A stretch of DNA of 53,472 bases from the NCBI GenBank assembly GCA_902781455.1, contig CACZJF010000014.1, forward strand, positions 1 through 53,472, read 5' to 3'. Below, piece by piece: positions 1,863 to 6,296 of this stretch. Origin of the DNA: an uncultured Lachnospiraceae bacterium (GTDB lineage: Bacteria > Bacillota > Clostridia > Lachnospirales > Lachnospiraceae). The position numbers were made by a program, and so were the translations under genes. The notes beneath the pieces are model-generated. The model made no database searches and had not been told where the DNA came from. It saw nothing but the letters and a program-made list of their open reading frames with translations. Positions within the stretch are counted from its first letter, which is position 1; the number at the start of each line of letters is the position of its first letter.

Positions 1863-2804
1863 CTATGTGTAAAAATCAAGATTCAGCCGCATCTGCGGAT
1901 CGATCCAGCTGACCTGTTTCGCCTGGTGGATCACATCCCCCGGCAGTTCATGACCGATCAGGAAAGGGGAGCTTGGATCGTGCATCCTTAAATTGCGCAG
2001 CACGGTGTTCTTTTCCGCATTCGCATAGCAGTAGCGGCAGAGATGGCCGCAGGTATTATAAGCGCCGATATCTCCCGTGAGATAGCAGGCGCATTCTTTT
2101 CGGTTATTGGGATTCGGCGGCACTTTGAGATTCTGGCCGATTGCTGTCTCAAATGTCCTGACTGTCATGCATCCGGAACAGTCTGCGCCGAGGGCTTCAA
2201 GAGATCTGCTTTCTCCACAGGGCTTTATAACCATATTGTGTTTTTTGCCGATTTCAACGAAAGAAGCGGTGAGCGTCAACTGATCCTTCATCGGAACCCG
2301 TTTTGCTTCAGGATAATTCTGTTTCACTTTTTCATACAGATCAATAAAGCTGATGACACAGGCTGATGTGAACCCGGAAAGTTTTGCAGCCATGTAAGAG
2401 AAGGCTTCGATATGACGATCAACCGTCCAGGTATCGTCGATCAGGATCGGATCGTAACGCCAGCAGATGGAGTCGATGCCAACCTCTTCCGACAGACGGC
2501 GAAAGGTATCCATGACTGCGTTTTTGTCTGGCACTTTCGGTTCGATCTCTTTTCCATAAGGTGTGATAGTCACAAACCAATATTGACCGTAATCTTTCAG
2601 AAGATCCATGTACTTCAGCATCGGAGCCGGGTTCTTGGAACAGAAACCGATCATGTCCACAACGGAAGGATCCAGTTCATATCGTGTTATGGATGCAGGA
2701 TTGTAGGGATTGCGTACAAGAACAAAACCTTCCTTCAGCCGGTTTGCAAACCAGTCGGAATAGAAGGCTGGGATATCTGTTCTCATGCCTGTCTGGATGA
2801 TCAT
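1863..2804 (-). CDS. DUF1848 family protein with C-terminal radical-SAM-like Cys cluster
   Basis: A 313-residue protein. The N-terminal ~220 residues are TIM-barrel-like (MIIQTGMRTDIPAFYSDWF, VDMIGFCSKNPAPML, ICWRYDPILI). The C-terminal part holds many cysteines, CSGCMT then CACYLTGDIGAYNTC and CGHLCRYCYAN, i.e. CxxxCxxC. In DUF1848 this cluster is known to resemble the [4Fe-4S] motif of radical-SAM enzymes, but it sits at the C-terminus instead of the N-terminus. GGGAGAAT precedes ATG 2804, inside the end of the upstream YolD-like gene. The two are 2 nt apart and share one SOS-type promoter. A repair or nucleotide-modifying role is inferred from that context only. Confidence 0.85.
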   Translation of the reverse strand: MIIQTGMRTDIPAFYSDWFANRLKEGFVLVRNPYNPASITRYELDPSVVDMIGFCSKNPAPMLKYMDLLKDYGQYWFVTITPYGKEIEPKVPDKNAVMDTFRRLSEEVGIDSICWRYDPILIDDTWTVDRHIEAFSYMAAKLSGFTSACVISFIDLYEKVKQNYPEAKRVPMKDQLTLTASFVEIGKKHNMVIKPCGESRSLEALGADCSGCMTVRTFETAIGQNLKVPPNPNNRKECACYLTGDIGAYNTCGHLCRYCYANAEKNTVLRNLRMHDPSSPFLIGHELPGDVIHQAKQVSWIDPQMRLNLDFYT

Positions 2805-2806
2805 TC

Positions 2807-3355
2807 TTATTCTCCCGGCATATCAGGAAAGCTCTTCCGCCCGAAGTTCCCATCAATTTCCCATATGTCATCAAAGGGGATCGACACTTCTCCATCAGAG
2901 GTTTTGATCCGGATGGAATGCGGGTCTACATGAAGGACCGTTCCGCTGTGTTCCCTGTACTGTCCGCCGTGGCCGTACCAGTCATTCTCACTGTCTGTAC
3001 AGGATTCGAAACAGGTGATGGTCACGGCAGGAGCATTCTTCCTTGCTTCATGGCTATTATAGGTGAGAGAGCGCAGAAAGGACAGCTTCCGGTTCAATAC
3101 CTCCACTTCTCCATCAGAGAGAACTTTCCGCTCACAATACAGTACTTCCTTACCGGCGATTCTTTCGTCAAAACCATACAGTGCGTCAAACGGGGCAAAG
3201 ATCTTCGCCCAGTGACTGGCCGGCATCGGCGGGTGTCTGATTAAGAAGGGGTCGTACCCTTCATGCTTCGGCCTGCCGCGTCTGAGAATCTCCTTGTATC
3301 TGAAACCGGCTGGCATATTCATAAAGCCGATCATCGGATATGCTGCTGCAGTCAT
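2807..3355 (-). CDS. YolD-like protein, SOS-regulated
   Basis: A 182-residue protein. I chose ATG 3355 because a strong AGGGAGGTGA lies at 3361-3370; a longer frame to 3421 would place the start inside the operator. The core AKIFAPFDALYGFDERI is the YolD signature (usually KWAPFDALTGF). The C-terminal HSGTVLHVDPHSIRIKTSDG followed by ISIPFDDIW-like residues is the small beta-barrel half of the family. YolD proteins of Bacillus sit in SOS operons with Y-family polymerases; here the partner is DUF1848. The first gene of the two-gene operon, it lies under two LexA boxes. The molecular function of YolD is not established. Confidence 0.85.
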   Translation of the reverse strand: MTAAAYPMIGFMNMPAGFRYKEILRRGRPKHEGYDPFLIRHPPMPASHWAKIFAPFDALYGFDERIAGKEVLYCERKVLSDGEVEVLNRKLSFLRSLTYNSHEARKNAPAVTITCFESCTDSENDWYGHGGQYREHSGTVLHVDPHSIRIKTSDGEVSIPFDDIWEIDGNFGRKSFPDMPGE

Positions 3356-3401
3356 CTGTATCACCTCCCTGTACAAAGCTGTGGAAAAGTTGTGCCTGGC
3401 A

Positions 3402-3415
3402 GGAACGGATGTTCG
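3402..3415. promoter_or_regulatory. LexA (SOS/DinR) box B, just downstream of the start site
   Basis: Read on the minus strand the site is CGAACATCCGTTCC, again GAAC-N4-GTTC with the flanking C and C of the consensus. It covers about +5 to +18. Its centre is 34 bp from box A, close to three helical turns, which would allow cooperative binding of two LexA dimers on one face. Confidence 0.8.
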
Positions 3416-3426
3416 GTGCATGATCT

Positions 3427-3455
3427 GTTATATCACGAACGGACGTTCTGGTCAA
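3427..3455 (-). promoter_or_regulatory. Promoter of the YolD-DUF1848 operon
   Basis: Read on the minus strand: -35 TTGACC (3455-3450), 17-nt spacer, -10 TATAAC (3432-3427). Transcription would start near 3420, giving a leader of about 65 nt before ATG 3355. The spacer is almost filled by a LexA box. Confidence 0.8.
3436..3449. promoter_or_regulatory. LexA (SOS/DinR) box A, inside the promoter spacer
   Basis: CGAACGGACGTTCT matches the Gram-positive LexA consensus CGAACRNRYGTTYC at every position but one of the outermost. It lies between the -35 and -10 elements, the position expected for direct steric repression. Confidence 0.85.
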
Positions 3456-3598: not shown

Positions 3599-4267
3599 AT
3601 GACACTGCAGGAAGCAATTGATGCCCGGCATTCTGTGCGGGCATATAAGACGGATCCGATTCCGGAGGAGATCAGAGAAAAACTCGATGCGTTTGTTAAG
3701 GAGTGCAACAAGGAAGGGGATCTTCATATCTCCATCCGCTATGATGACCCGGCCGGCTTTGACTCCAGGCTTGCGCATTACGGCAGTTTCCGGAATGTCC
3801 GGAACTACATTGTGCTTGCGGGAGAGAAGGGGCCAGACTTTAATTTCAGGTGCGGATATTATGGAGAAAAGATTGTCCTGTTTGCGCAGCAGCTTGGTTT
3901 GAATACCTGTTGGACAGCACTCACATTCAACAAGAAAAAGGTGAAGGAGCTGATTGATCCACAAGATACCCTGTGCATGGTAATTGCGCTTGGCTATGGG
4001 GAAACGCAGGGGATAGCGCATAAGAGCAAGGGTATCTCCGATGTGGTTGCAAGCAGGGGCGATATGCCGGAATGGTTCCGTCTGGGTGTGGAGGCGGCCC
4101 TGAAGGCTCCGACCGCCGTGAACCAGCAGAAGTTTGCATTCGGCATGAAGGACGGAGCGCCTGCGGTTATGGTGAAGGGGTTCGGCGGGTATACGAAAGT
4201 AGACCTCGGGATTGTGGCGTATCACTTCGAGACCGGCTCCGGCAGGAAAATCAGTTATCACGCATAA
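3599..4267 (+). CDS. Nitroreductase-family protein (TM_nitroreductase type)
   Basis: A 222-residue flavoprotein. AGAGGTGAAGT precedes ATG 3599. The start LQEAIDARHSVRAYKTDPIP is the FMN-binding N-terminus of nitroreductases, and the RYDD, YYGEKIVLFAQQLGLNTCW and APTAVNQQKF segments match the two-repeat 'putative TM nitroreductase' branch. It probably reduces quinones, nitro compounds or flavins with NAD(P)H; the substrate cannot be read. It is divergent from the SOS operon, whose LexA boxes lie 150-200 bp upstream. Confidence 0.88.
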   Translation: MTLQEAIDARHSVRAYKTDPIPEEIREKLDAFVKECNKEGDLHISIRYDDPAGFDSRLAHYGSFRNVRNYIVLAGEKGPDFNFRCGYYGEKIVLFAQQLGLNTCWTALTFNKKKVKELIDPQDTLCMVIALGYGETQGIAHKSKGISDVVASRGDMPEWFRLGVEAALKAPTAVNQQKFAFGMKDGAPAVMVKGFGGYTKVDLGIVAYHFETGSGRKISYHA

Positions 4268-5669: not shown

Positions 5670-5780
5670 CGAGTCGATGACGCCACAAGAACGGTATGAA
5701 CGTTTTCGAAAAAGCACGTCATTCACCAGGTAAGGGAATATGCCGGTACGATGTATGACATGAGAGATGGAGGAGCCTTT

Positions 5781-6296
5781 ATGGATACCATAATCAGAAA
5801 CATACAGGGAGACATCACGAAAGTGGATTCTGCGGAAGCAATTGTGAATGCCGCGAATAATTCTCTGCTGGGCGGCGGTGGTGTGGACGGCGCGATCCAC
5901 CGTGCCGCCGGTCCGAAGCTGCTGGAAGAATGCAGAACACTGCATGGGTGCAGGACAGGGGAGGCAAAACTGACGGGTGCGTACAACCTTCCCTGCAAAT
6001 ATGTCATCCATACGGTTGGCCCCATATGGAGGGGAGGATACATGCATGAGCCGGAGCTGCTTGCGGATTGCTACCGGAACTCCCTGAAGACAGCGGTAGA
6101 GCATGAGATCCGCAGTGTGGCATTTCCGTCCATCTCAACAGGCGTCTACAGTTACCCTGTTGAGGATGCTGCGGAGATTGCGGTTCATACAGTAAGGCAG
6201 TTCGTCCGGGATCACCCCGGCAAACTGGATCTGGTAGAGTGGGTGCTGTTCGACAGGTACACTTATGAGGCATATGAGAATGCGCTGCATGTATGA
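5781..6296 (+). CDS. Macrodomain protein, O-acetyl-ADP-ribose deacetylase (YmdB-like)
   Basis: A 171-residue single macrodomain. ATG 5781 lies 7 nt after GGAGG; a longer frame from 5751 has no comparable site. Motifs in order: [20 protein letters not shown], the glycine loop [42 protein letters not shown] split across residues ~65-90, and [12 protein letters not shown] for the diphosphate loop. These are the ADP-ribose-binding and catalytic parts of MacroD/YmdB enzymes, which remove acetyl groups from O-acetyl-ADP-ribose or ADP-ribose from proteins. A second, larger macrodomain gene lies at 23.4 kb. Confidence 0.9.

Follow-up and report, generated by a model that had tools for sequence, protein, structure and literature searches.

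The window analysed here is a stretch of 53,472 nucleotides from an uncultured Lachnospiraceae bacterium, and the subject of this report is a putative two-gene operon on its minus strand, in which a divergent yolD-like gene is followed by a gene of the DUF1848 family. The yolD-like gene (2807..3355, ATG at 3355) encodes 182 amino acids, and the DUF1848 gene (1863..2804, ATG at 2804) encodes 313 amino acids that are predicted to form a circularly permuted barrel of the radical S-adenosylmethionine (radical-SAM) type. Only 2 nucleotides separate the stop codon of yolD from the initiation codon of DUF1848, and the likely DUF1848 ribosome-binding site (RBS), GGGAG, sits within the 3' end of yolD, an arrangement that suggests translational coupling of DUF1848 to yolD.

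Promoter and LexA-type boxes

Upstream of yolD and its RBS (GGGAGGTG, 3362..3369), the letters of the minus strand read as a -35 element TTGACC (3450..3455) and a -10 element TATAAC (3427..3432). The 17-nucleotide spacer between them holds AGAACGTCCGTTCG, the first of two LexA-type boxes (3436..3449; CGAACGGACGTTCT on the plus strand), whereas the second box, CGAACATCCGTTCC on the minus strand (3402..3415), begins 11 nucleotides beyond TATAAC, just past the expected transcription start. Rechecking of the letters confirmed this layout as originally described, with the boxes 34 bp apart and the two genes adjoining. The promoter is absent from the output of a consensus promoter scanner, which requires a T at the last -10 position; a simple scanner returned one promoter-like site, within DUF1848, and listed no terminator-like site.

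The original prediction also placed the operon under SOS control, and this is likely from the boxes and their setting. Exact CGAACN4GTTC cores occur twice in the window, both in the promoter region of the operon, and seven times in the 2.39-Mb assembly (two of them in this operon), as against 34 occurrences of a reversed control pattern. When one mismatch is allowed, there is no excess in the window (12 matches versus 12.7 in shuffles). A 14-bp matrix was built from 17 sites hand-picked upstream of lexA, uvrX-type and yolD genes of relatives and of the organism's own lexA, with no site from the window. This matrix ranks the second box first (14.25 bits) and the first box second (12.55 bits) in the 53 kb, while 60 shuffles gave a mean of 1.28 sites of that strength and two within 60 bp in none of the 60. 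The host assembly carries a lexA gene with the similar boxes CGAATATCTGTTCA and CGAAAATCTGTTCG upstream, and in genus and order relatives similar boxes are found ahead of lexA, of some UvrX-type polymerase genes and of some yolD genes. In one of these loci (L141), two boxes 32 bp apart precede the probable start of a polymerase gene, an arrangement much like that of the operon.

The boxes lie over the promoter, as expected of a member of the LexA regulon. LexA bound at both would cover the promoter and block transcription, and RecA filaments formed on damaged DNA would stimulate LexA self-cleavage, whereupon both proteins would be made. Repression, induction and cotranscription of the operon are all inferred here from sequence.

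A lone yolD-like gene

The product of the first gene (P0002) scores 16.8 bits against PF08863, below the curated cut-off of 27.5. When used as a query, it found matches in 70 of the 295 order-level genomes, among them that of the window, and the match lay behind a Y-family polymerase gene in 21 of the 23 order-level loci inspected, which are part of 29 other loci and in which the polymerase was recognised by motif and, for one (L055), confirmed by Pfam. Of 29 viral loci retrieved with a YolD alignment, 28 have a same-strand polymerase gene 5' of YolD, with a gap of about 0.8 kb in L313; the remaining locus (L314) begins at the edge of its stretch. Because P0002 matches YolD open reading frames behind Y-family polymerase genes, the first gene is, judged by sequence, a divergent YolD-like protein. 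Modelled alone, it gave no usable structure, with a predicted local distance difference test score (pLDDT) of 36.7.

YolD has been proposed to be a UmuD-like partner of the UvrX/YqjW polymerases (PMC6511836). The window shares with this Gram-positive Pol V-like set (YolD/YqjX with UvrX/YqjW) a YolD-like protein under apparent LexA-type control, but it differs from the set in that no polymerase adjoins yolD, and DUF1848 comes next instead. The single Y-family polymerase match in the assembly, which is 81% complete, lies away from yolD. Lone yolD genes are found elsewhere: a distant yolD of Staphylococcus aureus under separate LexA control has been described (PMC6511836), and two yolD genes of the window's genus (L151 and L153; 47 and 45% identical) have no polymerase before them and carry boxes, AGAACATGTGTTCG and CGAACATGTGTTCG, just upstream. 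The window gene fits this description of a lone SOS yolD.

A non-polymerase gene directly 3' of yolD also has parallels, in the form of SRAP-type genes in L054, L057, L058, L060 and L162. A polymerase precedes yolD in all of these except L054, where a yolD without any polymerase is followed by a gene confirmed as SRAP by Pfam. Such loci resemble the window in gene order, but have SRAP in place of DUF1848 and are known in several genomes. The YolD-SRAP order raises the possibility that YolD is linked to the protection of abasic sites.

DUF1848 and its probable radical-SAM fold

The second protein (P0001) matches PF08902 over its full length (E 2.5e-97), and hmmscan at E up to 1 lists DUF1848 as its sole family, with neither Pfam SPL (PF20903) nor PF04055 present. 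A radical-SAM-type motif, C252GHLC256RYC259Y, is encoded at 2025..2051 on the minus strand; its three cysteines and Y258 are invariant in 58 of 58 aligned bacterial and viral sequences, and the family has four further invariant cysteines beyond CxxxCxxC. Position 55 is C in 35 of the 58 and W in 23, corresponding to an FCTKNP-type sequence in window-type members as opposed to FWTKNP in other PF08902 members. The structural model is confident (pLDDT 92.8) and its nearest folds are radical-SAM barrels, including spore photoproduct lyase, which places it as a TIM-type barrel related to known members, at whose mouth the cysteine cluster would lie. No solved structure was matched by the DUF1848 profile in a sequence comparison (best E 0.76), and a viral Foldseek library gave few good matches, the best being a phage protein (TMq 0.61). 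The invariant motif, the nearest folds and the profile comparisons described below support the earlier claim of a radical-SAM-like cysteine cluster, and DUF1848 looks like a radical-SAM enzyme related to the group that comprises SplB/COG1533 and spore photoproduct lyase. The likeness of the cysteines is not new, since the Pfam text for DUF1848 notes that the C-terminal cysteines resemble the radical-SAM cluster.

What sets DUF1848 apart is the position of the motif, which in radical-SAM enzymes is N-terminal to the rest of the barrel and here falls at residues 252-259 of 313. A 58-sequence DUF1848 alignment was compared by hhalign with 29 spore photoproduct lyases and lyase-like proteins, pooled. 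In the natural order, the match had a probability of 24.2 over 42 columns around the cysteine motif, with a separate barrel match of 7.4. With residue 241 onward moved to the front, a single colinear match of 166 columns was obtained, with a probability of 91.4 (P 9e-7). Cuts at 150 or 190, which also place the motif before the barrel, gave 91.1 and 91.4, and cuts at 60 or 100, which do not, gave 46.5 and 46.6. A reversed target, 40 column-shuffled targets and three unrelated families all remained at or below 0.9.

A pair of COG1533-type proteins encoded near DUF1848 in L210 and L214 provides a second comparison, in which the probability was 85.6 in the natural order, 95.2 when permuted and 86.5 to 94.4 with other cuts; the unpermuted barrel of DUF1848 matches COG1533-type proteins over 128 columns. 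The alignment with this pair sets the cysteine motifs against each other, and likewise IQTGMRTD against IGTGSMSD, SKN against TKS, TITPY..IEPKV against TLTTY..LEPNV, and WRYDPIL against W-TPIL. Moreover, the L210 protein is a canonical Radical_SAM protein (60.4 bits) that also matches Pfam DUF1848, below the cut-off (E 2.9e-4), the match covering the part of L210 after its cysteine motif. The proteins compared from L210, L214 and a Roseburia plasmid are ones that we take to belong to the SplB/COG1533 group. They share with DUF1848 the motifs CxxxCxYC, TG-x-x-SD or TG-x-RTD, TK, T-T-Y...EP-V and W--PI, in the same order after permutation, whereas DUF1848 has its cysteine motif at the C-terminus and four extra invariant cysteines. 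Spore photoproduct lyase likewise differs from DUF1848 in the order of its elements.

Several comparisons count against the permutation. No gain was seen when the 12 true lyases were used alone (28.5 natural, 27.1 permuted), nor when the target was the subset of 14 distant lyase-like proteins (17.4 natural, 16.7 permuted) or a single radical-SAM protein (1.9 in both orders), and a third COG1533-like protein alone showed at most a small one (39.2 natural, 42.1 permuted and 53.7 with another cut). The rise on permutation is thus confined to the pooled lyase set and the COG1533 pair, and the probabilities for that pair are rough because the target consists of two similar sequences. PF04055, where listed, scores 12-16 bits in natural order and in five permuted copies alike. 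Because the Pfam Radical_SAM score stays in this range, the case for permutation is carried by hhalign, the structural alignment and one cross-match, and DUF1848 is better termed a permuted relative than a canonical member, as its motif is C-terminal and the colinear match appears solely in the permuted order. On this evidence, DUF1848 is very probably a permuted radical-SAM enzyme. Its first barrel strand and the CxxxCxxC loop, the predicted [4Fe-4S] site, would have moved to the C-terminus in a descendant of the SplB/COG1533 group, and the four extra cysteines would perhaps hold a second metal site.

As far as literature searches go, the permutation itself is new. No paper naming DUF1848 or PF08902 was found, and nothing judged relevant was listed on circularly permuted radical-SAM proteins or spore photoproduct lyases (PMC1282579 included), or on radical SAM with SirTM.

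In Bacillus spore photoproduct lyases, the H-donor cysteine is found beside an SDP motif. DUF1848 has T5/G6 or A/S at this position, but the lyase genes compared also show no cysteine in the stretches read, and its absence was dropped as an argument against lyase chemistry. No SPL match was found in the window's assembly.

Neighbours of DUF1848 and its possible role

Matches to DUF1848 came from 72 of 150 genomes of the bacterial family, and a further 27 loci are viral, some of them on contigs several hundred kb long. The viral relatives in L261-L265 and L268-L276 occur on contigs of up to 673 kb and include short frames of about 180-214 residues, and those short frames that were read (L268, L269 and L273) keep all seven cysteines. 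A neighbour survey covered 145 DUF1848 loci, 82 with a same-strand upstream neighbour and 65 with a downstream one. The neighbours are very mixed, with 244 proteins falling into 194 clusters. Pfam, run on 138 of 146 selected neighbours, gave GNAT (9), Macro (6), NUDIX (4) and DNA_alkylation (2) among the 25 of 170 families listed.

Some of these neighbourhoods are linked to DNA damage. Alkylation-repair genes (Ada, Ogt, AlkA-type, AlkD or ATL) lie within 1.5 kb of DUF1848 in 6 of 174 loci, the window excluded. In these six (L015, L337, L357, L363, L210 and L223), Ada, Ogt, HhH glycosylase, AlkD or ATL genes are close by, on the same strand as displayed, in an adaptive-response-like setting. 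In an independent check, an Ogt-type gene (PF01035) was found within about 1 kb of DUF1848 in at least 2 of 55 DUF1848 genomes, where a rough estimate expects about 0.1. In the case of L107, Pfam gives the gene order cinA-DUF1848-recA, and a Planktothrix plasmid carries DUF1848 at a distance of about 1 kb from AlkB, the two being on opposite strands. Together with the SOS context of the window, the Ada, Ogt, AlkD, HhH glycosylase and cinA-recA contexts have DNA damage in common and are spread over different branches. As a separate observation, two LexA-like sites 33 bp apart precede the recA start in L107.

The reading that we favour, at roughly even odds, is that of a LexA-repressed two-gene operon in which a lone, divergent yolD has DUF1848 coupled 3' to it, and in which DUF1848 is a permuted radical-SAM enzyme acting on damaged or modified nucleic acid. 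The reaction of DUF1848 would use a 5'-deoxyadenosyl radical, its substrate being DNA or nucleotides that are damaged or covalently modified, with alkyl-type adducts the first candidates, and YolD would be a UmuD-like accessory, perhaps for a polymerase encoded elsewhere, with no contact with DUF1848 required. Judged by its neighbours, DUF1848 may plausibly have a role connected with damaged or modified nucleic acid; that it removes or alters covalent adducts of nucleic acids or nucleotides, alkyl-type first, is put forward with low confidence. The ordinary part of the operon would be the lone SOS yolD, and the interesting part a widespread, unstudied family of permuted SplB-like radical-SAM proteins, here under apparent LexA-type control. 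Placement as a permuted radical-SAM enzyme gives a common family a testable chemistry, and the damage-linked neighbours (LexA boxes here; Ada, Ogt and AlkD; cinA-recA) indicate which substrates to try first. If DUF1848 repairs DNA, it would be an addition to the few radical-SAM enzymes known for repair. A bolder version is speculative and improbable: DUF1848 would form a class of direct-reversal repair enzymes not recognised so far, permuted SplB-type proteins that remove alkyl or ADP-ribosyl adducts from bases or phosphates, that entered operons linked to LexA, Ada and RecA on independent occasions and that very large phages carry.

SOS control of a radical-SAM-type enzyme has precedents in other LexA-controlled operons. 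For instance, the excerpted LexA regulon table of Streptomyces venezuelae (PMC9380542) includes the radical-SAM gene vnz_31145, and an earlier idea that such control is unprecedented was dropped. This gene resembles the present one in being a radical-SAM-type gene under LexA control, but the excerpt neither calls it DUF1848 nor mentions YolD, and the two are set side by side by description alone.

A number of results weigh against the favoured reading. Taken as a bare count, the alkylation association does not reach significance (weak alkylation matches also turned up in 2 of 130 control loci), and the alkylation queries were themselves drawn from DUF1848 loci. The commonest recurrent neighbour is SirTM/Zn-macrodomain and not DNA repair. 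The yolD-DUF1848 pair is known from one assembly alone (81% complete, 65 contigs). Finally, no credible LexA box was found in the 400 bp upstream of DUF1848 elsewhere in a scan of 145 loci, of which 10 gave loose matches; the scan includes the window's own locus and counts one locus twice. The best-looking candidate (L233, at -61) was rejected, as it falls within the codons for MRTDIP, the conserved beginning of the DUF1848 protein. Such a scan could overlook boxes that stand before the first gene of a longer operon, since those of the window sit further up, before yolD. SOS control of DUF1848 appears to be a property of this lineage.

These last points bear on another explanation, namely that DUF1848 is a passenger that landed behind a lone SOS yolD by chance rearrangement and whose function is unrelated to damage or YolD. 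Of the 295 order-level genomes, 55 have DUF1848 (E at most 1e-10) and 70 a YolD-like protein (E at most 0.01), and comparison of the two lists by hand gave 24 genomes with both, in which the genes adjoin in the window but in 0 of the 23 others. The corresponding numbers among 19 genomes of the genus are 7, 12 and 5, with adjacency in 0 of the other 4; both counts are limited by the fragmentation of the assemblies. Flanking sequence of up to 6 kb to the left and right of DUF1848 held no YolD in any of the 80 nearest named relatives. In the genus member G434, the yolD relative is 45% identical and lies on a different contig from the closest DUF1848, which is 74% identical and has no box at its locus. 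The mixed neighbourhoods of the family also agree with a chance arrival. However, the 2-nucleotide spacing with an RBS in the end of yolD suggests translational coupling, DUF1848 is intact, and other DUF1848 genes lie by Ada, AlkD or Ogt genes and between cinA and recA. A passenger is possible but somewhat unlikely. As the pair occurs in the window alone and the genus has lone SOS yolD genes, the coupling is taken as lineage-specific. Two candidates for a second pair were set aside: in G032 the genes are about 2.0 kb apart with another gene between, taken as chance, and the weak YolD-profile match beside DUF1848 in L013 (E 0.0052, 14.4 bits) is a RhuM-family protein.

A second alternative, which we consider doubtful, is that DUF1848 belongs to ADP-ribose or nicotinamide adenine dinucleotide chemistry, making, removing or sensing an ADP-ribosyl-type mark with SirTM and Zn-macrodomain proteins, SOS control then being a link to stress. 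SirTM and/or Zn-macrodomain genes (18 proteins) lie on the same strand, on either side of DUF1848, in 13 of the 145 loci (L023, L026, L173, L177, L178, L179, L181, L182, L188, L203, L225, L236 and L238). The same holds on the Roseburia plasmid (L366), where they are annotated as Sir2-family and protein-ADP-ribose hydrolase. The names were given from motifs and the plasmid annotation, Pfam itself listing Macro (L181) and a SIR2 match below the cut-off (L026). NUDIX neighbours with, in our reading, the look of ADP-ribose pyrophosphatases in three loci, and the cinA neighbour in L107, point the same way. DUF1848 is a possible unreported member of ADP-ribosylation (SirTM) operons and, if it belongs to SirTM signalling, would be a missing enzyme of that system. 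On the other hand, SirTM and Zn-macrodomain are missing from most DUF1848 loci, the window's own (L083), which lacks the makeup of a SirTM operon, among them. Neither was matched in the six alkylation-linked loci, and the excerpted accounts of SirTM operons (PMC4518038, PMC11490716) mention no DUF or radical enzyme. Covalent-adduct chemistry on nucleic acid or nucleotide, as in the favoured reading, would suit both the DNA-damage and the SirTM contexts.

It is very unlikely that the DUF1848 cysteines bind zinc only and that the protein is not a radical-SAM enzyme. In favour of zinc are the other four invariant cysteines, which could make up a binding site for it, the failure to find a solved homologue by sequence and a weak PF04055 score. 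Against it, the spacing in CxxxCxYCY is that of radical-SAM enzymes, to which the nearest folds also belong, and the DUF1848 profile is matched by a canonical radical-SAM protein.

Least probable is a complex of YolD with DUF1848 in place of the Y-family polymerase, as first proposed: the operon structure and the position of the sole polymerase match of an incomplete assembly, not beside yolD, speak for it, but no second genome has the pair, the polymerase is 5' of yolD in nearly all order-level and viral loci whereas DUF1848 is 3', in the position of SRAP, and DUF1848 has no profile likeness to Y-family polymerases (hhalign 0.1-0.2). A lack of conserved adjacency or LexA boxes in relatives had been named beforehand as refuting; adjacency was found in the window alone and no credible box within 400 bp upstream of DUF1848 elsewhere, which tells against the partnership claim, and DUF1848 is, by gene order, not a conserved partner of YolD.

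The operon is flanked downstream by an opposite-strand gene that ends at 1731 and upstream by a diverging nitroreductase-type gene that starts at 3599. Elsewhere in the window, a macrodomain protein (PF01661, E 3.2e-49) is encoded at 5751-6296, about 2.3 kb from the operon promoter and on the other strand, and a protein with DUF434 and DUF5616 domains is encoded at 325-1119.

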